IMG/VR virus record: IMGVR_UViG_3300021957_000098
Coordinates: 1 to 40,897 of that record
Origin: a virus
Reading direction: 5' to 3' (one strand)
DNA: 40,897 bases
The position numbers and the translations under genes are program-made. The notes beneath the pieces were generated by a model. That model worked only from the letters and a program-made list of their open reading frames with translations. It was not told the DNA's origin and did not search any database. The first letter of the stretch is position 1, and each line of letters starts with the position of its first letter. This document shows, in pieces, positions 1 through 38,772 of this stretch.

Positions 1-3000
1 AAATTGTAAAAGTAAACGAACAACTTCCTGTAGAGCTTACTGTAGCAACACCGCTATGATAAATCCACTTTGGAGGACTATTACTACTTCCAGAAACATT
101 GTAGTTAGTACTACTAAGATTCCAAGCACTTACAGAAAAGTTGCCAGTAGAAGTAGCATAATAGCTACCCTGCCCTGTGTCTTGGCTACCTCCTGGACCT
201 GTTATACCTAAAGAAGCGTTAATAACTATTTTTGATCCAGCAGGAAGACTAGAGAATGAAGCAGTAACAGAACCAGTAGTGTTGCCGCTATCGCCTACAT
301 GGGCTACCCCTGCACTAAGATCATAAGCAAGATCACTAAGTCCTGGAAGTCTGTCTATGTTTAATTCACCCGCATTAATTTGGGTAGCATTAACTGTACC
401 CGCATAAACGTAGTTAGCAATAATACTATCAGCTTGAATACTAAATTTTACCCAAGAAGAACCATTATAACGATAAGTAAAATTATCGCTGGTATTATAA
501 AAAATATCGCCATCTTTCAAAGGAAGGCTGTTTTGCCCTACTGAAGGCAAACTACCTCCTGTTTGCGAGCTATTTTTAGAATTATACCCATGATACGCAA
601 AAGGATAAAGAAGGCTAGATACTTCTCCTGCAAAATTACTTTGACCACTCCCTGTAATAGTAGGTTTAATTCCCGTTGCACTAATATTAGTTACGGTAAC
701 TAAATCTGCATCAACAGTACCTGTTGTAATTCTATCACCGTCAATAACAGTATTAGCATCTGCTAACCTAGTATTAAGGTTTGTAAAGCTAACAATACCA
801 TCGAAGTTAATACTACGTGTTGGTGTAGTACCTGTTGAGGTAGTATTAGTAGCAGATGCAGTGGCATCTACAAAGCTAATATCACTAAAATAATAAGTAG
901 TGGTGCTAGAAGCGTCAATAGTAGGCGCTGTTAAAGACCAACCAGAAGTTAGATTACTAATAGCTAAAGTAGACCAAGTAATAGTTGCACTAGGTGCGGA
1001 GGGTTGGCTTGTTGCACCACGATAAACTCTTACAGTAGAAAGCCTTGGGGCGTCAGCTCCTGCACTTCCGTTACTACCATTAGCACCCGCAGCACCCGCA
1101 GCACCCGCAGCACCGTCACTTCCCACATACTTTACAAAAGTCTGTCCACTTACAGGTAGAGTTGGCTGAGATACGCTTTCATAAAAGGTAACGTATTCTC
1201 TACTTCCAACATTAAAGGACTGGCTAGCACCAGATGAGTTAGTTGCGTAAATAGGCCAGATAGCTTGGCCATTAGTACCATTAGAACCGTCATCACCTAC
1301 AAATTTAACCCAAGTACCTGTTACAGAAGATACAGACGGTTTTGTTCCAGTCCATTCGTAATACAACACGTATTCTTGATTAGAGTAAGTAGCAGTCTTG
1401 TTTAATCCTGATGTATTATCCGCATAAACTACAAGCACACCTTCGCTAACACCATCATCACCGTCATCCCCATCTTGCCCTAAGATAGCAGGAGTTGACC
1501 ATGTATTAGGAGTTGCTGAAGTAGTTCCAGGAAGCCCATCTACTGACGAGTTAGAGATATAAACTGGGCCAACTCCAATAGGAACTGAAGTAAACCATCC
1601 GCTTGGTGGAGTAAGCGTATCACTTACAAAGTTGTAAGAACCACCAGTGGGGGTATTTACAGGCGTAGAAGTTGATCTTTTAAATACAGAAATTTGTCTA
1701 CTTAGTGTTACTGTTCTAGAAAGAAAATTTAACGTAATACCACTGTTAGCCGCTGTAACAGGTAGCGTTGGTTGTTCGTCTGGTTTATAATCAATTACCG
1801 CATAAAAAGGATAAGTAGTTTCACTTGCATTGTCATTATAAGTCTGATCACTAGCAGAATGGGAAGACTGATTACTATTTTTAGCATAAATGTAATCTTG
1901 GGTTAGTGGGCCTGTATAAGTTAAAGAATAAGGCCCAATTACAACCCTGTTAGATATTTGACCATTAGGTGATACTGTACGTACCGCCCAATGATATGTT
2001 CCTTGTGCCAAAGCGGTTACATCAAAGGTGTTTCCTGTTGTTGTACCGAGATCAAAAAAGGTTGCTTGATTATCATTAGAAGCTTGTATTATATAGTATA
2101 AAGTATCACTGCTAACAGCAGTCCAAGACAAATTACCCGAAGCAACACCGTTATATAACGCTGTAGTAGACCAAGTTAAATTTGTTGCTAAGTCTGGATC
2201 AAAGTTTATTGGGTTAGTTGCAGAAATCCCTGGAACATCATTATCGGCAACATTCCATGCATAACTATCAATGTCAATGTAAAATGCATTTATTTTTACG
2301 GAAAGATCTTCTGAAATTTCTGTAGAATTTACTCTGTATATAGCATCAACATCAGATAAAGGAAGCTCTATTTTTATAAAATCTCCTGGCTCTAAACCGA
2401 TAGCCTCTTTATTTGCAACAAAACTTATTGCGTGATAAGTTCTAGATTGGCGACCAATTTGCTCTGCATGGGCAAGCGCATGATAAGGGTCAGTAACTCC
2501 AGTTAAACGAATGTCTGTAGACATTGGTTGATTATTATCTTGGCTTAATAAAGTATTATACAGAATTCTTCCTGCTGACGATTCTTGATCTGGCCAAGTT
2601 TTACTGTCTTCTTTAAAATCTTCATGTTCATTCATAAAAGTAACAGTAACAGAGTTAAATCTATCAGAGGCAGAAGACCATTGTAAATCAATAGTGTCCC
2701 TAATAACATTATCATTATTAAAAGTTTTAACCGACAAAGCTTCTAACTCAGTTTGATTACTAGGATATTCTAATTGTAGCTTGTACTTTCCATCAGAGGT
2801 CCATGTCATAACTGCAAGAGGCATTGTATTTAAAATAGCCTCAATATTATCTCTAACAGTTGCTTCAGAATCTAAAGAAATATTACATTCGTAAAGAGGA
2901 ATATCTCTAGTGCCAAGAGACGCAGCTGAATAACTACCATTGGGATTTTCTTCCGTACCTGTTTGTGTAAAAGTATAAAAGTTTTCTGTATCTAATGCTT

Positions 3001-3880
3001 TATAGTATGTATCTTCGTTAGTTTCATCGCTAGTAACATCAGGGAAGTCACTTTGAGTATTATAAGCCTCAATCGGGTATTCACCATTAACGCTACCAGC
3101 AACGATACGCCCAGTCATTTTGGTAGTGTTACATTTTGATCCTGCATTATAAAAAGATTCAAGGTCTATCTCGGAGACATCAATGTTACGACCATGAGCA
3201 CCAAGTAAATAATCAAGAAGGCACCATGCAGGATTATTAGAATAAATATAACCGCCAAGGCTATAGACCCCTGAGTTTTCTAAAACTGGCCTTACTTTTC
3301 TTCCTTTTACAAAAAAAGTTAAGTTAGGTATACCATTATAGTTGTAATCATTTCTATTTAAAAAGAAACCTGCAGTAACATGAGCAAGCCCTGTAAACTT
3401 ATGGTTAGCCCCTAAAGAATTAGCTGAACCTAAAGGGGAGGTATTAGGTAACTGATTATTATAAGTATGTACTATATGTCTATGTTTTTTGTCTCTATTA
3501 TAAACTGTATCATCAACAGAAAAACCTTGAACACCTTCAATTCCACCTTGACAAATCGCACCATCCATCATAAGTAAACTACTTTTACCAGTTGATCTAC
3601 TTTGATTTAATGTTTTCTTTTTAGAAAACCATTCTGTACCACCAGTTCCTGGGCTAGCATAAGTATAAGAACTAGCTGTTTTGTGATTAGCTTCAATAAG
3701 ACCTACTGCTTGTTTTCCGTAAACAATAGGTATATGGCTAGCTTCTCCTCTTTTATTAATGGCAAAGCCTTTTCGCTTATCTGCCTCTCTTTTCATTTTA
3801 TTGTATTGAGAAATCTGATAAGCTGTTGAAACTGCAAAACTAAACCATTGTAAAGCTGTTTTACCTAAAAATGTTACCAT
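1..3880 (-). CDS. Tail-tip host-specificity protein, lambda J / GTA gp15-like (C-terminus cut by window edge)
   Basis: The frame is open from an ATG at 3880 to the left edge, giving at least 1293 residues with no stop. The start overlaps the upstream stop as TAATG, which suggests translational coupling. The N-terminal part (KRGEASHIPIVYGKQAVG, later GGYIYSNNPAWCLLDYLLG) looks like the J/TipJ tail-tip family. Further on are fibronectin-III-like stretches, a short collagen-like Gly-X-Y run coded at about 1055-1126, and repeated segments containing VYADN or similar. Known J proteins form the tip that contacts the host receptor. Position after an NlpC/P60-like gene and two minor tail genes fits the lambda K-I-J and GTA gp13-14-15 order. 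Family call is by pattern and context. Confidence 0.8.
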   Translation of the reverse strand, partial: MVTFLGKTALQWFSFAVSTAYQISQYNKMKREADKRKGFAINKRGEASHIPIVYGKQAVGLIEANHKTASSYTYASPGTGGTEWFSKKKTLNQSRSTGKSSLLMMDGAICQGGIEGVQGFSVDDTVYNRDKKHRHIVHTYNNQLPNTSPLGSANSLGANHKFTGLAHVTAGFFLNRNDYNYNGIPNLTFFVKGRKVRPVLENSGVYSLGGYIYSNNPAWCLLDYLLGAHGRNIDVSEIDLESFYNAGSKCNTTKMTGRIVAGSVNGEYPIEAYNTQSDFPDVTSDETNEDTYYKALDTENFYTFTQTGTEENPNGSYSAASLGTRDIPLYECNISLDSEATVRDNIEAILNTMPLAVMTWTSDGKYKLQLEYPSNQTELEALSVKTFNNDNVIRDTIDLQWSSASDRFNSVTVTFMNEHEDFKEDSKTWPDQESSAGRILYNTLLSQDNNQPMSTDIRLTGVTDPYHALAHAEQIGRQSRTYHAISFVANKEAIGLEPGDFIKIELPLSDVDAIYRVNSTEISEDLSVKINAFYIDIDSYAWNVADNDVPGISATNPINFDPDLATNLTWSTTALYNGVASGNLSWTAVSSDTLYYIIQASNDNQATFFDLGTTTGNTFDVTALAQGTYHWAVRTVSPNGQISNRVVIGPYSLTYTGPLTQDYIYAKNSNQSSHSASDQTYNDNASETTYPFYAVIDYKPDEQPTLPVTAANSGITLNFLSRTVTLSRQISVFKRSTSTPVNTPTGGSYNFVSDTLTPPSGWFTSVPIGVGPVYISNSSVDGLPGTTSATPNTWSTPAILGQDGDDGDDGVSEGVLVVYADNTSGLNKTATYSNQEYVLYYEWTGTKPSVSSVTGTWVKFVGDDGSNGTNGQAIWPIYATNSSGASQSFNVGSREYVTFYESVSQPTLPVSGQTFVKYVGSDGAAGAAGAAGANGSNGSAGADAPRLSTVRVYRGATSQPSAPSATITWSTLAISNLTSGWSLTAPTIDASSTTTYYFSDISFVDATASATNTTSTGTTPTRSINFDGIVSFTNLNTRLADANTVIDGDRITTGTVDADLVTVTNISATGIKPTITGSGQSNFAGEVSSLLYPFAYHGYNSKNSSQTGGSLPSVGQNSLPLKDGDIFYNTSDNFTYRYNGSSWVKFSIQADSIIANYVYAGTVNATQINAGELNIDRLPGLSDLAYDLSAGVAHVGDSGNTTGSVTASFSSLPAGSKIVINASLGITGPGGSQDTGQGSYYATSTGNFSVSAWNLSSTNYNVSGSSNSPPKWIYHSGVATVSSTGSCSFTFTI

Positions 3881-4452
3881 TAGATTTTACCCCACTTTAA
3901 CTTGATAACTGACTCTCCATAAATATTTGAAAAGCTTTCATCATCTTCGTCTTTTTGTTTAATTCCATTTTTAGAACTAATAAAAGGGATAACCATATCA
4001 AGATCCGACATTGGTGAAGTTCCCTCAAAAGTTACAAGCTTATTATCAAAGTTATTACTAATAGCAGGACTATCAACATACCCTTTATAAACCAACAAAA
4101 CATCACTTGAATTAAGAACAGGCTCTCCACTAGAGTCAAAGAATCCAACTTTAACCGTTATGTCTTTACCAACAACATTTAGATCAATTTCACCTTTAAA
4201 AGTATCATCATCATCTTCGACGACAACGACTCTATAAGATTCTCTATCGACTACTGAAGAAAACTTAGGGGAATCTACTTCAAGAACTGCGCTATTAGCT
4301 GTATAATTATTTCCTGAACCTGTTGGGTATTCTACATTATAAGGTAAAGACGAAAGTCTATGATGTGTATCAAATTCTAAATCAATTAAAAAGAAAAAGT
4401 CAACTGTATCTTGATTAATTAAAGACTGGACTGTACTACTAAATGTTCTCAT
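3880..4452 (-). CDS. Minor tail protein (tail-tip assembly, GTA/DUF2163-like)
   Basis: The 190-residue protein begins MRTFSSTVQSLINQD. It has a mixed beta pattern with KGYVDSP and a C-terminal IYGESVIKLKWGKI, similar in style to small tail-tip hub proteins that precede J in siphoviruses and gene transfer agents. It overlaps its neighbours by one base on both sides, so it is in the tail-tip operon. An acidic DDDD run sits near residue 80. Position and length support a structural role; the precise family is an inference. Confidence 0.6.
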   Translation of the reverse strand: MRTFSSTVQSLINQDTVDFFFLIDLEFDTHHRLSSLPYNVEYPTGSGNNYTANSAVLEVDSPKFSSVVDRESYRVVVVEDDDDTFKGEIDLNVVGKDITVKVGFFDSSGEPVLNSSDVLLVYKGYVDSPAISNNFDNKLVTFEGTSPMSDLDMVIPFISSKNGIKQKDEDDESFSNIYGESVIKLKWGKI

Positions 4453-5276
4453 TACAATGCCTCGATAATATCTATTGTTCCAGCAGTGGCTAAAATACCA
4501 TCATTAAAAGTTACACCTCTCATACTATCTATACTTCTAAAATATCTAATAGTAGCATTAGCAACAGTTGAGTAAGTTAAACCGCTAGGAGGTGTTGGGT
4601 AGAGGTTAGAAGTTGAGATACTAGAAGCATCTGCTTTTACCATATAGACTTTATTGTTGCTGCCTGTAACAAAGGCACCCTTGGGGTAAGATACCCCTGC
4701 TGAATTATTAACAGTAATTGAGTTGCCCATGTTGGCGTGGTTTGTACAGTAGTAATGTAGAGTAGAAGGGGCGCTATTATCTACAACAATAGTAGTATTG
4801 GCCCCCGATTGACCTTGAGTACCGTTTACAGTAACTCCCGTTGTGTACTGAGGACTTCCATTAGAATTTGTTGAAAACCTAAGAGGATGTGCGCCATTCG
4901 AGCTATCGCTTTGATCAAAGATATAAGTATTACCTTTAACAAAAGTTAAAGTTGGGTTTTGATTACCGTCAATATAGAATTTACCGCCTGAAGCAGTAAC
5001 TATATAGGTGGTTGTCGAACTCGAACTACTCTCTAATCTTTTATTTACATCATTGAGCTGAGGCATTGGCATTGTTTGTTCAGTGTCAAAGTTAACAATG
5101 CTTGCTAAGATATCAGCTGGACTATCAGTTAAAATTCCAAAAGATAGCTCCCAACGTTGAGCACCTTGTGAAGATCTTTGCTTTTTAAGAGAAATTGTAT
5201 CAGCATCAAACATTGGTTCGTTTGAGTTTATAGTAAAAGGGGTTAAAATTTCATAACCCTCGTAATAATATTTCAT
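4452..5276 (-). CDS. Minor tail protein with an inserted cupredoxin-like domain
   Basis: The 274-residue protein has an N-terminal tail-protein segment (about 1-75), a Ser/Thr linker (83-90), and then a beta-rich domain at about 91-190. That domain contains His130, Cys177, His180 and Met183. The run CTNHANM has the Cys-x2-His-x2-Met spacing of amicyanin-type blue copper sites, and the earlier HPLRF supplies the first histidine. The C-terminal part (190-274) returns to a tail-like sequence. The gene lies two bases from the NlpC/P60-like gene and overlaps the next tail gene. The domain may bind copper or may only use the fold for adhesion; similar HPLRF...YYC.NH modules are known from marine phage structural proteins. 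Confidence 0.65.
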   Translation of the reverse strand: MKYYYEGYEILTPFTINSNEPMFDADTISLKKQRSSQGAQRWELSFGILTDSPADILASIVNFDTEQTMPMPQLNDVNKRLESSSSSTTTYIVTASGGKFYIDGNQNPTLTFVKGNTYIFDQSDSSNGAHPLRFSTNSNGSPQYTTGVTVNGTQGQSGANTTIVVDNSAPSTLHYYCTNHANMGNSITVNNSAGVSYPKGAFVTGSNNKVYMVKADASSISTSNLYPTPPSGLTYSTVANATIRYFRSIDSMRGVTFNDGILATAGTIDIIEAL

Positions 5277-5278
5277 AG

Positions 5279-5722
5279 TTAGCTCCTTAATGGTCTGGCT
5301 AAAAGGTTCAATCGCCTATCTAAAAACATATAGCGAGAACCTTGTTTTATTCCTGAATTGTCTTCATCAGTTGTGACCCAGTGACCATTATCTGCTATTA
5401 CTGCAGATCCATCCATATAACCAATATCACCATATTGAGGTCTTAAGTCAGGACGTATTTCGTAATTACAATACTCAGCAAAAGATTTAAGAGTAAACTT
5501 TTGTTTCTTTAGCCCTAACAAGTATTCTTTTGGGCTGTTATATTCAATAATAACGTCTTCTGCTTTTGATTTGTTACCTTTTAGTGCTTTATCGTACTCG
5601 ATAAGAAAACAAAAACAGTCATTGTATCCCCATATAAACTTGTCTACAATACTTGTTTTATCGTTAATAATTCTTTTTGCTTTACTTATAGCACTAATAA
5701 TTTCTTCTAATTTATAATACAT
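5279..5722 (-). CDS. NlpC/P60-like tail peptidase (lambda K / GTA gp14 position)
   Basis: The 147-residue protein contains WGYNDCFCF with candidate nucleophile Cys36, then GDIGYMDG and a candidate catalytic His114 in DNGHW. This Cys...His layout is that of NlpC/P60-type peptidases found in phage tail tips, where they cut peptidoglycan during DNA entry. It is the first gene of the tail-tip cluster. A good ribosome site (AAAGGTAAAGTT) precedes the ATG, and a phage promoter motif lies 34 bases upstream. Sequence similarity is modest, so the family call rests on motif plus gene order. Confidence 0.6.
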   Translation of the reverse strand: MYYKLEEIISAISKAKRIINDKTSIVDKFIWGYNDCFCFLIEYDKALKGNKSKAEDVIIEYNSPKEYLLGLKKQKFTLKSFAEYCNYEIRPDLRPQYGDIGYMDGSAVIADNGHWVTTDEDNSGIKQGSRYMFLDRRLNLLARPLRS

Positions 5723-5789: not shown

Positions 5790-6476
5790 TTATAGTTTTT
5801 CTTTAATGAAGACTCTTACTAGATCTGCTACGATGTCGCTTCTCACGATGTCATCGACATTAAATTCAACAACTGGTAGTCGAATTCCAGCCTTTTTTAC
5901 AACACTACAAAATTTAAGTAGGTCTTTACCCTCCTTAACATCTGATTGCGCGGGGTCTCCCATAAGCACTAGTTTAGAGTTTTCACCTAGCCTAGTTGTA
6001 ATTGCCTTTAATTCATCCAAATTAAGATTTTGAGACTCATCTACTAAGACTAAAGAGTCTGCATAAGAACGCCCCCGAATAGTCTCAATAGGTTGAATTT
6101 CAATGTCGCCCTTGTTTATCATGTATTGATATTTGTCCTTACCGAAAGAAGTTCTTAATACTTCTAACATTGGTAATAACCACGGTGTCATCTTTTCTTG
6201 GATAGAGCCAGGAAAGTGGCCTAAAGATTTACCTGTAGGAACGTTAGCACGAGTTAATACAATGCGTTTGTATTTACCTTTCATAAAGATTTGTGCAATA
6301 GTTCCTGTACTGCAATAAGTCTTACCTGTCCCTGCGCAGCCGATAGTAACTGTTATAGGGTTCATTTTAATAGATTGTATTAGTAAGTCTTGTTTCTCAT
6401 TTTTAGGTATAACATGAAAGCCAATCCTGTGAATGTTATTATTTTTTACAGCGTAACGAGATTTTCGTTTTGACAT
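5790..6476 (-). CDS. phoH: PhoH-like P-loop ATPase
   Basis: The 228-residue protein has Walker A GCAGTGKT at 46-53 and a Walker B-like LVLVDESQNL, both typical of PhoH family ATPases/helicases, which are common auxiliary genes in marine phages. The role of phage PhoH is unsettled; RNA metabolism and phosphate stress have been proposed. It follows the bilin reductase gene by 12 bases with ribosome site AAAGGAC, making it the last gene of the heme oxygenase-bilin reductase cassette. A hairpin and promoter follow. Confidence 0.9.
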   Translation of the reverse strand: MSKRKSRYAVKNNNIHRIGFHVIPKNEKQDLLIQSIKMNPITVTIGCAGTGKTYCSTGTIAQIFMKGKYKRIVLTRANVPTGKSLGHFPGSIQEKMTPWLLPMLEVLRTSFGKDKYQYMINKGDIEIQPIETIRGRSYADSLVLVDESQNLNLDELKAITTRLGENSKLVLMGDPAQSDVKEGKDLLKFCSVVKKAGIRLPVVEFNVDDIVRSDIVADLVRVFIKEKL

Positions 6477-6488
6477 AAAAGTCCTTTA

Positions 6489-7139
6489 TTATATTTCGGG
6501 GAACAAGCCTTCCTGAATAAAGATATTTACTTCTTCAGGGTCTAGCCCTAAAGATGTCATAACTCTTGGGGTGTGTGGATTCTTCTTTTGATTTTGACAG
6601 TAAAAGTTTTGCTCTTCAGTGTAATCATTTTGGGTAACTTCCCCAATATTACTTAAGTAAAAGTTTAAATTTCTTTTAACTAATTCTAAAATTTTATTCA
6701 GCTCTTCTTCAGAGTTTACATTACCCGCTGCTATCATATTTCCACTAAAGATGTTCCGCGCCCACTCAGGAAGTTCTCTTTCCTTTTTAGGTTTAAAATC
6801 TTTGTTATTATCGTGAAACCACTCTAACATCCAGTGGTCTTTACTAGCGGGGCTAAAGTCATGAAAAGCCCCTGTTACTTTTCTTGGACCTGCAATTATA
6901 TCAAATCCAAATATCGGTGCAGGGTCTTTGGTATGTGGAAATACACAAAGATGTAACATATAAAGATTTTTTGTATTTCTTGCATCTACAATATCCAAGT
7001 GTGCTCGCCTAAACTTAGTGTCTGTATAGACATAGTTAGGCCATGAAAATTCATGATCTTCCTTTACTTCAGTGTACTTAGAAAGTATATCGATTATATC
7101 TTTATGAACTTTTTCTAAGCTATCGAATATCATGCTCAT
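6489..7139 (-). CDS. pcyX: Ferredoxin-dependent bilin reductase, PcyX-type (biliverdin to phycoerythrobilin)
   Basis: The 216-residue protein aligns by eye with cyanobacterial PcyA: FRRAHLDI, LHLCVFP, FGFDIIAG and DFSPASKDH correspond to PcyA FRKMHLEL, LHCVMFP, FGCDIVAG and DLSPTQSD. The catalytic His and Asp of PcyA (His88, Asp105) correspond to His63 and Asp80. The third triad member, Glu76 in PcyA, is Asp49 here; Glu-to-Asp at this place is the reported hallmark of the phage PcyX family, which makes phycoerythrobilin from biliverdin using ferredoxin. RELPEWARNIFS and YCQNQKKN are further PcyA-like blocks. Its start lies 20 bases inside the heme oxygenase gene, so the two are coupled. No ferredoxin gene is visible, so electrons must come from the host. 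The exact product is inferred, not shown. Confidence 0.9.
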   Translation of the reverse strand: MSMIFDSLEKVHKDIIDILSKYTEVKEDHEFSWPNYVYTDTKFRRAHLDIVDARNTKNLYMLHLCVFPHTKDPAPIFGFDIIAGPRKVTGAFHDFSPASKDHWMLEWFHDNNKDFKPKKERELPEWARNIFSGNMIAAGNVNSEEELNKILELVKRNLNFYLSNIGEVTQNDYTEEQNFYCQNQKKNPHTPRVMTSLGLDPEEVNIFIQEGLFPEI

Positions 7140-7647
7140 CTGCTAACTCCTGAAATAACTCTATAGCCCAGAGCATTACTTTGTTGGCTTCAGCTGCTAG
7201 ACTATCGTCTAAACGCTCTCTTAGTTTTTTAATAAGATTAGATCTATCTTCAAACTCATACATAGCACCTGAACCTGGAACAACCTTTTTCATAAGTTGT
7301 CCACCAAATAAATCTCCAAAGTGCCGCACGTACATGTGCGCCATTAAGTTTTCTTTTGATACTGTATCTAAATACCTTACATATTTATAAGTGATATTAT
7401 AGACTTTTGCATTAGATCTGAGTTCATGGAAATCATCTAACATTAACTTAGATCTTTTAACAGTCTCTACGCCTTGGAGTAACCCGTAATGCTCTAGCAG
7501 AGTCTCTAATTTTAAATACATTAAATACTGGTTTAATAAATAGTCTGCATAGATGTGGGTAGAAACACCCCCTGAAAACAAAAGTTTTACAAAAGGGTGT
7601 TTCTCGGCGAGATCATGATTTTCTTTTATATGATCTCTTAGTGCCAT
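7120..7647 (-). CDS. ho1: Heme oxygenase (heme to biliverdin)
   Basis: The 175-residue protein has the heme oxygenase layout. HDLAEKHPFVKLL carries the likely proximal heme ligand His11, followed by a tyrosine-rich helix (YADYLLNQYLMYLKLE). The distal helix contains RHFGDLFGGQ (GDLFGGQ at 111-117), the flexible Gly-rich helix over the heme. It would cleave heme to biliverdin, iron and CO with ferredoxin or another reductant. It is shorter than cyanobacterial HO1 (about 240) and lacks the C-terminal extension, more like compact bacterial HemO. It overlaps the bilin reductase gene downstream, so enzyme and next enzyme are made together. Confidence 0.92.
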   Translation of the reverse strand: MALRDHIKENHDLAEKHPFVKLLFSGGVSTHIYADYLLNQYLMYLKLETLLEHYGLLQGVETVKRSKLMLDDFHELRSNAKVYNITYKYVRYLDTVSKENLMAHMYVRHFGDLFGGQLMKKVVPGSGAMYEFEDRSNLIKKLRERLDDSLAAEANKVMLWAIELFQELADEHDIR

Positions 7648-9331: not shown

Positions 9332-12300
9332 TTATAATACTCCCCAACCATAAGTTGAATTGATATATACAAGTTCTACTCCAGCATTATTTACGTCTAT
9401 AGTAAGATCGTTTGCTGAACCTGCAATATTGTTACTGTTTCGTGCAACGGTAATGTTTGCTGTGCTTGCTGCCCCTGAAACATCTATGATTTTAATTGTA
9501 TCGCCTGCTGTTGCACTGGCAGGGAGAGTGACTGTATGAGCACCATCTACAGCAAATACTTGTCCTAAAGTTAAAGTTGTATTCCCACTAACAATCGTAA
9601 CAGTTTGATTTTGAGCACCTGCAACTATTTCAGTATCTACATAAGTCTTAGTAGTTGCATCATTAGCATCAGTTGGCGCACTAAGACCTGTAACTTTATT
9701 AGAACCCATAGCAAGATCACCAGACATGGAGTCACCTGCTTTGGTTACTTTAGTATCTGCATAGGTTTTATTAGTCGCGTCATTAGCATCAGTTGGAGCA
9801 GCAAGGCCAGTGATTTTATTAGCGCCCATTGCAAGAACGCCAGACATAGTATCGCCTGATTTAGCCACTTTAGTATCTGCATAAATTTTAACCGCATTTT
9901 CGGTTGGTACTGCTGTATTAGAACTTCCTGATAAACTTGCATCAGAAGAAAACTCATTAATCTGTTCACCAAGTTGAGCACCAATAGATCCAAGCCTAAG
10001 TGAAGTTAGACCTGCTAGATCAAAAGCACTAGCGTTAAGTGTTGCTTTACCTGTAGCCTGTTCAATTCTAAAATATTCACCTACACGGAAGTTACCATCT
10101 TGGTCTGTTGAAATATAGTAAACCCTAGCAGGGAAATTTTCTTGAACTTCATTACCTTGCGCAGCAGCTTGAGTTGGAGTTCCAGGATAGTTAGTTGTAG
10201 TAAAACCACCTGTACCAATGCTTAAGAAATCATGGCCTGTTAGCCTGATTTGTGAAAAGCCTTTACGTATTGTAATAGCTACATTATCAGCAGAACCTGT
10301 TGTTTTCTCTTGCGCCAGAACCAATGTCATTTCACTAGTTGCATCCGCATAAGTACCAGAAACACTTTGAATAACATAAGCAATAGTGTCACCTGCAAAC
10401 TGGATACTACGTCCAGGTTCAGGTGTGGAAGCAAATCCATCTGCTACAATAACAAAGCCTCTTTGATCTTGAATGGCATTACTATCAACATCAGCAGTTC
10501 CACTAGAGGTGCCGCCTGTAACCTGTTCATTAACTTGAAATGTTCCAGTTACATCTTTTACATAGACATAACCTGCAGATTGTTGAACGTTAGTAACTAC
10601 AGCAGTTGCACTAGAAGTGCCACCTGTTATTGTTTCTCCTACTTGAAAAGAAGCAACTTGAAAATTATCAACGTGAAGTCTTGAGCCCTTTACTGCACCT
10701 GTTAATGCTGTTTCATTTTGATCAAAGCCTACTGAGACTGCGCCCCAAGTACCATAAGAGTTATTACCGTTAAGCGCACGTATCTGAGCACCATGATCAG
10801 CTGCATAGCCAAAATAACAGTAATAAGTAAAACAAGAAACAACTTCTGCCTTAGCGCCGTTAGCAATCCAAAAACCAACACCATTATCCGCAATAACAGT
10901 ATAAGCATGAAATAACATACTTTTATTACCACTTGAATGAGCACTGCCATTTACATAAGCACCAATACAACCACTACCAATAGCAGAACACTCCATCACG
11001 TAAGGTGATTTACTTGTTACTGGGCTATTAGGGTTAAGAGCAACACAAATACCTTTTGCTGTAGACGATGCGATATTGTCTTGATTCGGTGATGCAGCTG
11101 CTGTCCAACCAGTCATTCCGTTAAAACTCATACCTTTAAGTATAGAACCATTGCTTAGTTGAAACATTTGAGATTGGTTATTTGGTGTAGTACCATCATC
11201 TGATATACCTGCACCGAAGCCATTATCAGCTGTAGTTTCAGGTTGAACAATAACACTACGTTGAGAATCACCAATAACTGCTTGAGTATCTTTTACAATA
11301 ATTGGTAACTGTTCTTCATAAGTACCATTTTTAACATAAATTACTGAGTTTGTTGGAGCCGTAGCACAAGCATATTTAATAGAAGCAAAGGGTGTAGCCA
11401 TTGCTTTACCTGACTCTACAGTATCCGTACCATGAGGGGCAACGTAGTATACGTTATTTGAATTAGTAGCACCAATCCACGCATAGTTAATACCGTCTGC
11501 TGCAACTGTTAAAGAGCTACCTGTATCTGATGCAGTAACCGCTGGCAACACATCTGTTGCACCTCTTGCAAAGAATTCCCATTTAGCTGCTGCTAAATCT
11601 GTTGCAAAAGTTCCTGCTTGGTGATCTACTAAACAAATATAGCTTGAAATACCATCTTTAATAATATCATCTACTTTGTAATAAGATCCTGTTGCCCAAC
11701 CACCTTTGTAATCTACGCCAGAACTAAATTTTTGCCACTTATTAGAAGCCAAATCTGCAGCAAAAGAACCTGAAGCGTGAGGTTCTAGAGCAATAAAAGT
11801 ATTACCACCATAAGAAACAACATCATCAGTATCATAGTCAGTAGTGGTTGCCCATGTTGCTCTGTTGTTAATGCCACCGTTTAAGCGAATCCAATCAGAG
11901 GTTTGAGTAGAAGGGTTTTGAGCATTATTATCTCTAAGTGCTTTATATAAAGAACCACCATAAGTTACAACCTGATTAATTAGATAAGCGGTTGAGCTTG
12001 ACCAATTCCCTTGATGGCTGAATCCTTCAATTACAAGTTCCCAATCGGAAGTACTTGAGGGCGGTAAAGTTGCTGATACGTCATTTTTAGCACGATAAGC
12101 ATTGGCTCCGTAAAGGACAATATCATTTAGATAGTATTGAGTAGCATTATCATAAGCACCTTGAAACTTAGTACCTGCGACATATGTTTCCCAATTAGCT
12201 GTATCAGTTGGCAAGTTGCCTGTTGTATTAGCAATTGCACGATAAAGGTTTGGACCGTAAGCTACAAGATCTCCTGGAACATACGCGGTTGAATTGTTAT

Positions 12301-12799
12301 AGACCCCTTCAGGAGAAATACCTTCAACAAATTGATCCCAATAAGTTGTTACTGTTGGTAAATTTCCTGTTGTGTCTTGTTTAGCCATATAAACAGAGCC
12401 ACCATAAGTAACCATGTCGTTCTTTTGATAAGCGGCTGTATTACTGTAAACACCTTCATATTGAATACCGTCTACAAATTGTGACCAGTAAGTAGTATTA
12501 GGAGGTGTTTGTCCTGTGCTACCTAAAACAGACACATAAACTTTACCACCGTGGCTTACAGCATCTCCAACTTGATAAGTAGTAGTTGTATCAAATACAC
12601 CTTCAAACTTAAAGCCTTCTACCATTAAAGCCCAATAAGCTGTATCTGTTGGTACATTACCGCTTGTTTTTAATGTGTGAGTATATACATAAACGTTACC
12701 GCCATACTTGACGATATCATTTCTTTCATACGTTGTTCCGTTTGCCCACTCACCTGCAAAATGGAAACGTAGTTTTCCTAAATCAATTAATTGTGCCAT
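9332..12799 (-). CDS. Tail fibre with tandem carbohydrate-binding-like repeats and beta-helix
   Basis: The 1155-residue protein opens with about eight repeats of roughly 47 residues of the type W..GT.Y...DiV.Y.G..Y......G..P.....W, resembling CBM5/12-type carbohydrate-binding modules (about residues 10-415). Next comes a beta-helix/pectate-lyase-like part starting YYVAPHGTDT with VIYVKNGTYEEQLPI. The C-terminal part has two copies of GD.MSG.LAMG.NK.TGL..PTDANDA..K.Y.DT, a common phage fibre repeat. It likely binds or cuts surface glycans. It starts a run of fibre-region genes leading to the bilin cassette. Confidence 0.85.
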   Translation of the reverse strand: MAQLIDLGKLRFHFAGEWANGTTYERNDIVKYGGNVYVYTHTLKTSGNVPTDTAYWALMVEGFKFEGVFDTTTTYQVGDAVSHGGKVYVSVLGSTGQTPPNTTYWSQFVDGIQYEGVYSNTAAYQKNDMVTYGGSVYMAKQDTTGNLPTVTTYWDQFVEGISPEGVYNNSTAYVPGDLVAYGPNLYRAIANTTGNLPTDTANWETYVAGTKFQGAYDNATQYYLNDIVLYGANAYRAKNDVSATLPPSSTSDWELVIEGFSHQGNWSSSTAYLINQVVTYGGSLYKALRDNNAQNPSTQTSDWIRLNGGINNRATWATTTDYDTDDVVSYGGNTFIALEPHASGSFAADLASNKWQKFSSGVDYKGGWATGSYYKVDDIIKDGISSYICLVDHQAGTFATDLAAAKWEFFARGATDVLPAVTASDTGSSLTVAADGINYAWIGATNSNNVYYVAPHGTDTVESGKAMATPFASIKYACATAPTNSVIYVKNGTYEEQLPIIVKDTQAVIGDSQRSVIVQPETTADNGFGAGISDDGTTPNNQSQMFQLSNGSILKGMSFNGMTGWTAAASPNQDNIASSTAKGICVALNPNSPVTSKSPYVMECSAIGSGCIGAYVNGSAHSSGNKSMLFHAYTVIADNGVGFWIANGAKAEVVSCFTYYCYFGYAADHGAQIRALNGNNSYGTWGAVSVGFDQNETALTGAVKGSRLHVDNFQVASFQVGETITGGTSSATAVVTNVQQSAGYVYVKDVTGTFQVNEQVTGGTSSGTADVDSNAIQDQRGFVIVADGFASTPEPGRSIQFAGDTIAYVIQSVSGTYADATSEMTLVLAQEKTTGSADNVAITIRKGFSQIRLTGHDFLSIGTGGFTTTNYPGTPTQAAAQGNEVQENFPARVYYISTDQDGNFRVGEYFRIEQATGKATLNASAFDLAGLTSLRLGSIGAQLGEQINEFSSDASLSGSSNTAVPTENAVKIYADTKVAKSGDTMSGVLAMGANKITGLAAPTDANDATNKTYADTKVTKAGDSMSGDLAMGSNKVTGLSAPTDANDATTKTYVDTEIVAGAQNQTVTIVSGNTTLTLGQVFAVDGAHTVTLPASATAGDTIKIIDVSGAASTANITVARNSNNIAGSANDLTIDVNNAGVELVYINSTYGWGVL

Positions 12800-21419: not shown

Positions 21420-21496
21420 TGGTGATCTCTGCAGGATTCGAACCTGCGACCTAGTGCTTAGAAGGCACTTGCTCTATCCAGCTGAGCTAAGAGACC
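21420..21496 (-). tRNA. tRNA-Arg(UCU)
   Basis: Full cloverleaf on the minus strand: acceptor GGTCTCT/AGAGATC (one G-U pair), D arm with TTAGCTCAGCTGGATAGAGC, anticodon loop CTTCTAA giving UCU, T arm GCAGGTTCGAATCCTGC, and an encoded 3' ACCA. It reads AGA arginine codons, which may be common in this AT-rich phage. Confidence 0.97.
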
Positions 21497-27548: not shown

Positions 27549-27717
27549 TTTGTGTCATCTCCGCTACAAACTTACTCATCTCTATAAATAAAAAGTAATA
27601 CAATAAAGATAAAACAGGGTCAAACTTTAAAAAATTAAAAAGATGACCAAGTATTGTTATTACAAGTGTTAAAATTGCAGCGATCCATAAGGCAGGTGCT
27701 GCTGGGTGCATTGACAT
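27529..27717 (-). CDS. Small membrane protein
   Basis: A 62-residue protein, MSMHPAAPALWIAAILTLVI..., with two hydrophobic segments. The ATG overlaps the upstream stop (TGATG). It overlaps the primase-helicase gene by 20 bases. Unknown function. Confidence 0.6.
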   Translation of the reverse strand: MSMHPAAPALWIAAILTLVITILGHLFNFLKFDPVLSLLYYFLFIEMSKFVAEMTQNGSDND

Positions 27718-28184
27718 CAATATCTCTCCCTTAATTTGTTGATATACGCTTTGGTTTTATTAGAGGGTGCCTCAGAAGGTACAAACCTAATTGCTGCAAT
27801 CTGACGGTTGTAAAAACGTGGAGTTTTGCCATCGTTTAAATATTCAGTCATACAATCGGATAACATTTGAAGATAAGCCTCTGAGTAGTATAAACCCCCT
27901 TTAGTTTTACATAAGTCTACTATTTCAAACTTAAAGTTTTTCTTTTTGTATGTTTTTATATCTTTTTTAAGGGCAATTGATGAACCAACGTAATTTCTCC
28001 AGTTCATTGGTTTACCATACATTTTAGATTTCTTTTTACCACCATGCCACAATTGTTTTTTACCAATATAAAATTGATTAGTAACTAGGTTTTCAATACA
28101 GTATATAAAGCCAAACCACTCTGAAGGATCCCATTGAGAATTAAATTCCCAATGGCCCATTTCATTCTTCAATAGCTTTGTCAT
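27717..28184 (-). CDS. Putative GIY-YIG-like endonuclease
   Basis: The 155-residue protein has FGFIYCIENLVTNQFYIGKK, close to the GIY-YIG pattern (here FIY...FYIG), then WRNYVGSS and an SEAYLQ segment that could supply the catalytic Glu. C-terminal RFYNRQIAAIR. It lies between exonuclease and helicase, where T7-like phages have nucleases, so it may be a junction or host-DNA nuclease. Function inferred. Confidence 0.6.
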   Translation of the reverse strand: MTKLLKNEMGHWEFNSQWDPSEWFGFIYCIENLVTNQFYIGKKQLWHGGKKKSKMYGKPMNWRNYVGSSIALKKDIKTYKKKNFKFEIVDLCKTKGGLYYSEAYLQMLSDCMTEYLNDGKTPRFYNRQIAAIRFVPSEAPSNKTKAYINKLRERY

Positions 28185-36431: not shown

Positions 36432-36644
36432 TTAACCTATAACTTCAATATTATAGGCAGTATCGTCTTCATAAAACTCTGCATAAGTTTCTTCTCCATC
36501 TATATTCATAAGAGCACCAACCCACCCTTCTCCTATAATTTGGACATGACCTTCTTCTGTTTTGTGATCTTCATAACCTGAAACAGCAATGCGGTCGCCT
36601 TCTTTAAGCGAATGCAAAATCTGAGTTAATAACTTCTGAGACAT
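36432..36644 (-). CDS. Small acidic protein after RNA polymerase
   Basis: A 70-residue protein, MSQKLLTQILHSLKEGDRIA..., with an SH3/KOW-like beta pattern (GDRIAVSGYEDHKTEEGHVQ). Its start lies within the end of the RNA polymerase gene. In T7-like phages small proteins here can modulate transcription, but this is only speculation. Confidence 0.6.
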   Translation of the reverse strand: MSQKLLTQILHSLKEGDRIAVSGYEDHKTEEGHVQIIGEGWVGALMNIDGEETYAEFYEDDTAYNIEVIG

Positions 36645-38772
36645 TTAGTGTTCCTTTACTAGGTGTTAAATCTAGAGAATCTAATTGACTTAAAATATTC
36701 TCTAAAGGTTGAATTTCGTAAAGCTCTAAAAACTTTTGTCTAACATGATAAAACATTTTATTCATGTTTCCTGCGTTACAACCGAAAGAATCATGAACGA
36801 CAGTTGTTAAATATTCTGCATCATGTATACACATAGTTAAGTGTACTGCGTCTAAACTGTGTACAATATTAGGGGCAGCTCCTGTTTTTTGTTTACTTTC
36901 ATTTATTGTTGTTTCTTCCCATACTTGAAGTTGAACTTTAAGTATTTCTTCACCATACTTAAGTTCTGTTCGTTTAATTGTCGGTTTTCTATATGCCTGA
37001 TATACAGGGAAATTTGTAATAGGAGACACCCAACTTAAATGCTCTTTTTTCTTGTTTGCTCTCTCAGCAAGGGTTTGAAATAGCCTCAAAAGCTTAGCTG
37101 GGCCTTTAAGCTCAGCGTAGCAGGTATCATATACCAGAGAGCCAAGGAGTGCGCCCCAGAGATGTTCTTTGTCTCTTAGGTAAGGCGAGATATCCCTTGT
37201 GTCTTCTATCACCTGCTGGCCCATACCGTAAGACGTACCACCATAGCCTAAAGTCATTACATTACGCTTGACAGTTTTACGTTGTACTTTCTTGTCTTGA
37301 ATATTATACCAATATACAGAAAATAGTTTTTCTCGTAGATCACGGTTTTTATTACGCCATGACTGTGCCTTTTGAAAAGCTAAAACTTTCCTTTCGGATT
37401 TATCAGGCGCAGTTTCATAAGCACGTTGTAAGGACACAGCAGTGTTAAATACTTTTTGAAATTTGGACTTAATTTCTTCATCAATTTCATTTGTCATTCT
37501 CTCTAATCTTTCCCAGACTTTTTCTGCTATAAACATATAGACATCTCCTGGGAGTTTGCTTGGTACTAAGTTTACTAAAGGCGCAACTTCATCGTCTTGA
37601 GACATAGCTACTAAATGTTGAACACCGTTGTTTGAACCGTCAATGTAAACAGGTAAACATGAAGGGAAACTTTCTTCTGAATTTCCTTCTCTTGTCCATT
37701 CTGCTAACATTTTTATTTCATAACAAGCTGCTAAAAAACTAAAAGGCTTATCTGCTTTCATCCAATCACAAGTTCCGAAAGGGTTTTCTGCTTGATTAAT
37801 AACCCACATCCAATTATCTTCAACCCAGCTAACTCTATCATCTAGTGTTATTTTATCATTACCCCATACATTAGCAGTATGCACACATAACCAGTACAAA
37901 CCATTAGACCCTAGCTCTACGGGTTCGTTAAGTAAAAGTATACCTTTTGCGTTATCACTAGACTGCTCATGTAAAAAGGCTGTGTTAGGGTAAATGCGGC
38001 CTCTGAAATCAAGATTATAAAGATGATAAAACACATTGTCCATGTGTTTTTCTGCAAGTCTTTGAATAGCCTCTGCCTCTATGATTAAGGAAGCCCGTTT
38101 AATTGGATCGATTTCTTTAGTAAACTTAAAGGGATTTACTTCAGAGTGCATACACTTTTGATATACGTCAAACACATTAGAGTTAATACGCCAACCTGTA
38201 TTGTTTAATTTATTTAAAGTATTAACAATATAGCTCATATCACTCTTTTCGAAGTATTTTATTGCTTCTTCATAACCTTTCTTTATTACACTAATACCTG
38301 TTGTACTATGATAGGCAGAACCATCCCAAGGAGCAGCAGGGGTGTTTACAGGAAACATATCACATTTTTCTGTATCTACAAGATCCATTAATTCTTTTAT
38401 AGACTTCCAATCTTTTGCGTATATAAAGTAAGACCTGTGTTTATCTTTTTTACCATTACGATAAGTATGTTTTTTGCGATACCCTAATATACCTAACTCT
38501 ATGTAGCTAATCATTACAAACCAACCACCTTGTATATCAAGTACGCTATTTTGCTTTTGTCTTAGTTTTTGTCTTAATCTCCTTCCAATATTGCTGGCAA
38601 CTTCAACTAGTGTCGATTTTCTTTCTAGCCCTTTTAATATATGTGCATAAGAAAATTCAATAACTTCTTTTGCATCTATAGCTGAAAGAAAGCTAGCTGA
38701 TTGTCGATTATCTAGTAATTCTTGCCTGTATTTAAAGTCTTCAGACAATGCGTCTAGAACATTTTTCTTCAT
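36604..38772 (-). CDS. Single-subunit (T7-type) DNA-directed RNA polymerase
   Basis: The 722-residue protein carries all T7 RNA polymerase active-site motifs: DFRGRIYP (T7 DWRGRVY), YIDGSNNGVQH with Asp378 (T7 Asp537), VKRNVMTLGYGG with Lys502 and Tyr510 (T7 Lys631, Tyr639), VVHDSFG with Asp661 (T7 Asp812), and the C-terminal foot DFAFA. It is about 160 residues shorter than T7 RNAP, with the shortening in the N-terminal domain used for promoter melting. It probably reads the repeated TACCTGACGTTAAAGAA promoters. Ribosome site AAGGAAA. Confidence 0.96.
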   Translation of the reverse strand: MKKNVLDALSEDFKYRQELLDNRQSASFLSAIDAKEVIEFSYAHILKGLERKSTLVEVASNIGRRLRQKLRQKQNSVLDIQGGWFVMISYIELGILGYRKKHTYRNGKKDKHRSYFIYAKDWKSIKELMDLVDTEKCDMFPVNTPAAPWDGSAYHSTTGISVIKKGYEEAIKYFEKSDMSYIVNTLNKLNNTGWRINSNVFDVYQKCMHSEVNPFKFTKEIDPIKRASLIIEAEAIQRLAEKHMDNVFYHLYNLDFRGRIYPNTAFLHEQSSDNAKGILLLNEPVELGSNGLYWLCVHTANVWGNDKITLDDRVSWVEDNWMWVINQAENPFGTCDWMKADKPFSFLAACYEIKMLAEWTREGNSEESFPSCLPVYIDGSNNGVQHLVAMSQDDEVAPLVNLVPSKLPGDVYMFIAEKVWERLERMTNEIDEEIKSKFQKVFNTAVSLQRAYETAPDKSERKVLAFQKAQSWRNKNRDLREKLFSVYWYNIQDKKVQRKTVKRNVMTLGYGGTSYGMGQQVIEDTRDISPYLRDKEHLWGALLGSLVYDTCYAELKGPAKLLRLFQTLAERANKKKEHLSWVSPITNFPVYQAYRKPTIKRTELKYGEEILKVQLQVWEETTINESKQKTGAAPNIVHSLDAVHLTMCIHDAEYLTTVVHDSFGCNAGNMNKMFYHVRQKFLELYEIQPLENILSQLDSLDLTPSKGTLNVSEVINSDFAFA

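Follow-up and report, generated by a model that had tools for sequence, protein, structure and literature searches.

A Putative Type 1 Copper (Cupredoxin) Domain as an Optional Insert in a Probable Distal-Tail-Family Protein and Its Relatives in Marine Phages

Introduction

Can a viral tail protein carry a blue-copper-like domain, and would such a domain bind copper or be a decorative part of the tail tip? This question is raised by a stretch of viral DNA of 40,897 nucleotides (IMG/VR record IMGVR_UViG_3300021957_000098, positions 1 to 40,897), hereafter called the window. In the initial annotation, made from the sequence alone, the gene at positions 4452–5276 was described as encoding a minor tail protein with a built-in beta-rich domain, in which His130, Cys177, His180 and Met183 were compared with the type 1 copper ligands of amicyanin. 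The cupredoxin fold, the type 1 site and the splicing of accessory domains into distal tail proteins (Dit) are already known. Nothing relevant on phage cupredoxin tail proteins was found in the open-access literature searched, and neither a marine phage cupredoxin family nor a cupredoxin as a Dit insert was found in Pfam, NCBIfam or that literature.

Results

The Gene, Its Product and Its Neighbourhood

The interval 4452–5276 contains an open frame on the minus strand only, the plus strand being rich in stop codons, and its translation is a protein of 274 amino acids. The flanks of this protein are homologous to insert-free proteins of 163–202 amino acids, so named here because they have nothing between the two parts that enclose the domain in the window protein. 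The N-terminal part (residues 1–83, positions 5028–5276, minus strand) was recognized by this homology, and the C-terminal part (residues 197–274, positions 4455–4688, minus strand) is about 73–83% identical to relatives with and without the insert. Between them lies a plug-in domain of predicted cupredoxin fold (residues 88–196, positions 4689–5015, minus strand), supported by an AlphaFold2 model and a Foldseek search of the PDB. The putative ligands are encoded, also on the minus strand, by codons at 4887–4889 (His130, the first ligand), 4746–4748 (Cys177, the copper thiolate ligand), 4737–4739 (His180, the second histidine) and 4728–4730 (Met183, the axial ligand). Checking of the translation placed all four residues at the numbers given in the initial annotation, with the motif CTNHANM at positions 177–183. 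Cys177 is the sole cysteine of the whole protein. The Cys-x2-His-x2-Met spacing of this motif is known from amicyanin, and the distance of 47 residues from His130 to Cys177 is the same as in plastocyanin.

Relatives of the surrounding protein were sought with residues 1–87 and 197–274 separately. In the insert-free relatives, the N-terminal part runs straight into the C-terminal part (...RLSTVNYPKGAF...). Seven close relatives of this type (L195, L196, L198, L199, L201, L202 and L205), each of 163 amino acids, are 77–80% identical to the window protein where aligned, and the insert is present in other relatives (L002–L006 and L204). Since closely similar proteins exist with and without the domain, it is an optional insert, dispensable for tail assembly. 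More distant insert-free relatives matched the distal tail protein family phrog_1302 (E 5e-16 and 9e-13; 7 of the 20 alignable family members in all); the window protein itself gave no direct match to phrog_1302 and is linked to it only via its insert-free relatives. The full-length model was of low confidence (pLDDT 49.7). We take the window protein to be a member of the Dit family. The earlier description as a minor tail protein is refined to a probable Dit-family member with an optional insert.

Directly after the Dit-like gene come a gene for a phrog_2048 tail protein (3880–4452, minus strand, E 1.2e-9) and then a homologue of the central tail fibre J, cut by the window end (2–3880, minus strand; phrog_31, E 3.3e-25; PF13550 over the cut-off). 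The Dit gene is preceded by a gene for a DUF6950-like protein (5279–5722, minus strand), which matched PF22262 slightly below the cut-off (E 2.2e-5) and phrog_2134 (E 1.2e-7). No tape-measure gene was recognized within the window.

Several other features of the window were observed, all on the minus strand. Genes for heme oxygenase (PF01126), a ferredoxin-dependent bilin reductase (PF05996; PcyX-like cassette as in marine phages, PMC11480375) and PhoH stand in a row (5790–7647) immediately upstream of those for the tail tip. The region 9332–12799 encodes a tail fibre in which several repeats of the carbohydrate-binding CBM_5_12 type were matched, in five stretches. A single tRNA-Arg (tct) gene is located at 21420–21496, and a SegE-like GIY-YIG endonuclease gene (27717–28184) adjoins exonuclease and primase genes. 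A single-subunit RNA polymerase (36604–38772; phrog_414, N4-like matches) and a DNA polymerase co-occur with the J-like tail-tip module (2–4452).

Fold of the Inserted Domain

The structure of residues 88–196 was predicted with AlphaFold2 from an input of these residues and homologous viral-contig domains (alignment A1, 41 rows). The resulting model (mean pLDDT 95.7, pTM 0.88) is all beta except for a short helical turn and contains nine strands of at least three residues. When it was compared with the PDB using Foldseek, all 50 matches listed were copper proteins with cupredoxin domains; three-domain nitrite reductase ranked first (E 1e-4), and behind it came multicopper oxidases, rusticyanin, AcoP, pseudoazurin and plastocyanin. 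TM-scores of the 50 matches listed were moderate, about 0.45–0.58, which characterizes the domain as a divergent cupredoxin. In the model, His130 is situated just ahead of a strand, Cys177 closes the penultimate strand, and His180 and Met183 belong to the loop preceding the last strand; this predicted placement is as in type 1 sites. An Ig-like or CBM domain was also considered as a candidate and was ruled out, the Foldseek PDB matches listed being copper proteins only. In a separate fold search of the BFVD with the same domain, the matches included small “beta-sandwich proteins” from giant viruses of the pithovirus-like and marseillevirus-like kinds (E about 1e-6 to 1e-7).

Sequence comparisons gave results of different strength. 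The best PDB match of the sequence profile alone was copper nitrite reductase (E 0.0043), and plastocyanins appeared in the same search with E of at least 0.2, interspersed with immunoglobulin chains. Comparison with PF00127 proteins from marine genomes by hhalign gave a probability of 89.5 with Cys and His aligned; in the hhalign and MAFFT comparisons Cys, His and Met correspond, and in MAFFT the first His of the domain falls a few residues from that of the PF00127 proteins. The window protein itself had no match over the cut-off in Pfam or NCBIfam, and a single-sequence PDB search was equally unhelpful. Weak matches were obtained for some family members to Copper-bind (5 of 41, best E 0.0085), Cupredoxin_1 and TIGR02656. 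As no curated model (PF00127, Cupredoxin_1 or TIGR02656) was matched over the cut-off, the domain would represent a new family within the cupredoxin superfamily. Of the features of this superfamily, a Greek-key beta-barrel of some 7–8 strands is present in the model, and the order His...Cys-x2-His-x2-Met in the sequence.

A beta-rich, blue-copper-like domain in a small tail protein, as initially proposed, is supported by the confident model, by a fold search that listed only copper proteins, plastocyanin included, and by the conservation and concerted loss of the ligands described below. The CxxHxxM spacing agrees with amicyanin, as initially annotated, but the folds closest to the domain are those of three-domain nitrite reductase, multicopper oxidases, rusticyanin and plastocyanin.

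Conservation of the Putative Copper Ligands

The copies of the domain pooled for this purpose came from scans of viral contigs, from one scan of genomes and from the records of twelve named phages. The complete His-Cys-His-Met set was found in 231 of 246 distinct full-length homologous copies, and no loss of ligands was observed in close homologues. The median pairwise identity among the 231 ligand-complete copies is about 46%, and all four ligand positions rank among the six columns of highest conservation: His130 is the top conserved column (97% of the 246 copies), and Cys177, His180 and Met183 are conserved at 95%, 95% and 96%, respectively. Every ligand-complete copy (231/231) has exactly one cysteine, the ligand itself, and an incidental or disulfide cysteine was ruled out on this ground. 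Both His codons and both Cys codons are used at the ligand positions, indicating that it is the amino acid itself that is conserved. The residues His130, Cys177, His180 and Met183 are, judging from the sequences, the signature of a putative type 1 copper site.

The remaining 15 copies comprise 12 without any cysteine and three in which H, C and H are kept with Lys replacing the axial Met. Cys and His180 vanish together in the 12 copies, which form a subfamily with an extra insert, and His180 is absent only where Cys177 is absent. A chance four-residue motif was ruled out by the conservation and this concerted loss. The extra segment, Y-x-L-D-G-x-x-V...Y, is located between strands and was found in 12/12 ligand-less copies against 9/234 copies keeping His-Cys-His (Fisher p 4e-15, a value that is descriptive only, the sequences being related). 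The subfamily in which Cys and His180 are replaced (L047, L048, L131–L133, L135, L231–L233, L280 and L308) includes the near stand-alone PSS2 gp080 of 112 amino acids, and gp7-like baseplate proteins contribute second copies to it. This minority apparently retains the fold in tail proteins, so that the fold can probably serve there without copper.

The influence of the search pattern on these counts should be kept in mind. In the cleanest sample, obtained with a ligand-free pattern, YxFD[QVL]Sx[SAN][ST]N, all four ligands were intact in 79/79 copies, the A1 viral scan having retained the matches most similar to the window. In the cellular sample 43/43 copies were ligand-complete, a retention that was partly selected because the pattern of the cellular scan included Cys and His.

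Distribution of the Domain

The domain was detected in 317 of 50,697 phage records (E 0.01), essentially all of them marine, and is a widespread marine family, no one-off. Its carriers are cyanophages, pelagiphages and phages of Methylophilales, together with a small number of marine virus or other records, in which the domain is part of tail fibres, gp9-like connectors, baseplate proteins and “virion structural proteins”. It is shared by four phrog families, phrog_30742, phrog_677, phrog_708 and phrog_693 (E 7e-29 to 3e-9). Cellular carriers are lipobox proteins of marine group II archaea, SAR86 and K189A-type gammaproteobacteria, with the caveat that some metagenome-assembled contigs may be misbinned phage.

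Some of these loci have peculiarities of their own. Among the lipoproteins L149–L165, which are mostly from marine group II archaea, the domain of the archaeal ones lies after collagen-like Gly-X-Y repeats; it also occurs at further cellular lipoprotein loci (L166–L180, SAR86 being L171–L172). In Photobacterium proteins of about 2750 amino acids (L181–L183) it is accompanied by GEVED domains and a domain of the legume-lectin type. At L016, L017, L026, L042 and L148 the domain is present in several copies, either within one protein or spread over adjacent proteins of the same phage. The locus tags of two pelagiphage records are swapped: the Hodr record (L137, OQ414635.1) has EXVC032PBaldr, and the Baldr record (L140, OQ414636.1) has EXVC031PHodr.

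Discussion

In our opinion, the locus probably encodes a Dit protein with a mononuclear type 1 copper (cupredoxin) domain as an optional accessory, which would bind copper and contribute to host contact in the manner of evolved Dits; most likely, the domain serves as an accessory module that is loaded with copper and makes contact with the host. According to this explanation, the cupredoxin domain would have been spliced between the N- and C-terminal parts of Dit, and its site would bind copper, probably once the virion is outside the copper-poor cytoplasm. Since virion assembly occurs in that cytoplasm, copper loading would follow release. As a part of the Dit ring, the module would surround the tail tip with some six copies, and copper may there stabilize the domain or form part of a docking surface on the host envelope. 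A precedent for such host contact is provided by the CBM inserts of evolved Dits, which promote adsorption in lactococcal phages and restore it on lactococci that bear exopolysaccharide (PMC10688798, PMC7291167). As to the choice between a copper-binding and a decorative domain, the evidence is only tilted towards copper.

The decorative reading may be formulated as a structural or adhesive beta-sandwich, in which an ancestral type 1 site serves as a fold-stabilizing staple for Cu, Zn or another metal and has no copper-specific function. The persistence of ligand-less copies in baseplate proteins suggests that the fold alone is useful, the Dit inserts described to date bind sugars (PMC7291167), and iron is bound by His pairs of the tail fibre in T4, with the same proposed for marine phages (PMC11705849). 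However, the strict co-conservation of His, Cys, His and Met at a median identity of about 46% argues for a copper-type site, and a zinc staple would not need the Met conserved at 96%; we regard this reading as rather unlikely. It is far less probable still, indeed hardly credible, that an Ig-like or other beta-sandwich has the four residues suggestively placed by coincidence. Tail proteins often contain Ig-like domains, and the weak profile matches include antibody chains, but no Ig domain occurs among the 50 Foldseek PDB matches listed, the domain is otherwise free of Cys, and the ligands, whose columns are all within the top six by conservation, are lost in concert.

More far-reaching is the possibility of a redox-active or copper-trafficking tail tip that exchanges electrons or copper with redox or copper-uptake proteins of the host envelope, a copper counterpart of the iron “Trojan horse” proposed for phage tails. 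The type 1 ligand set is complete, the domain is shared with lipoproteins of marine archaea and gammaproteobacteria, in which electron or copper handling would be natural, and metal at tail tips has precedents in the 4Fe-4S cluster of lambda gpL (PMC7291167) and in T4 gp37 and the iron hypothesis of phage tails (PMC11705849). Against it, the residues that make up the loop around His180 are small ones (S, G, N, A), with no evident docking patch, and no partner protein supports it, so that we consider such a function quite improbable. According to the corresponding general proposal, working blue-copper proteins are exposed on the tail tips and fibres of marine phages, and exchange of copper or electrons with host envelope proteins aids adsorption or genome delivery, lipoproteins with the same domain being present in some marine microbes. 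This proposal seems to us unlikely, if slightly less so.

Returning to the accessory copper-binding Dit module, its significance lies in the fact that an apparently complete and strongly conserved type 1 site has been hidden under the annotations “tail fiber” and “hypothetical protein” in cyanophages, pelagiphages and Methylophilales phages. If copper is bound, phages in seawater would carry defined copper sites, and the role of tail metals in adsorption, debated for iron, would become testable with a natural pair of tail proteins with and without the domain. A cupredoxin family lacking a present Pfam model and common to phages, marine archaea and marine gammaproteobacteria would also be added.

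Comparison with Known Systems

The domain resembles the known cupredoxins (plastocyanin, amicyanin and azurin of PF00127, rusticyanin, and the domains of nitrite reductase and multicopper oxidases) in the fold, according to the model and Foldseek, and in the order and position of His...Cys-x2-His-x2-Met. The Y-x-C-x-x-H and terminal strand patterns of PF00127 proteins align with those of the phage domain, whereas the first His is followed by Asn in the former and by Pro in the latter. Unlike known cupredoxins, the phage domain is found in viral tail proteins and surface lipoproteins, outside any known electron-transfer chain.

With the evolved Dits of phages of Gram-positive bacteria the window protein, as a probable Dit-family member, shares the general plan of a small Dit-family protein with or without an internal beta-sandwich accessory domain. 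The insert of evolved Dits is a CBM, in contrast to the predicted cupredoxin with a type 1 ligand set, and the literature puts their insertion in loops of the galectin domain, whereas here it is between the N- and C-terminal parts. The tail fibre, gp9-like connector and baseplate families phrog_30742, phrog_677, phrog_708 and phrog_693 contain the same domain, but their match is restricted to the cupredoxin stretch of the window protein, and none of them is annotated as a cupredoxin. Finally, the HxH iron sites of T4 gp37, the 4Fe-4S cluster of lambda gpL and the iron Trojan-horse hypothesis have in common with the window domain a metal site at the phage tail tip, putative in the present case, while T4 gp37 and lambda gpL differ from it in metal chemistry, fold and ligands.
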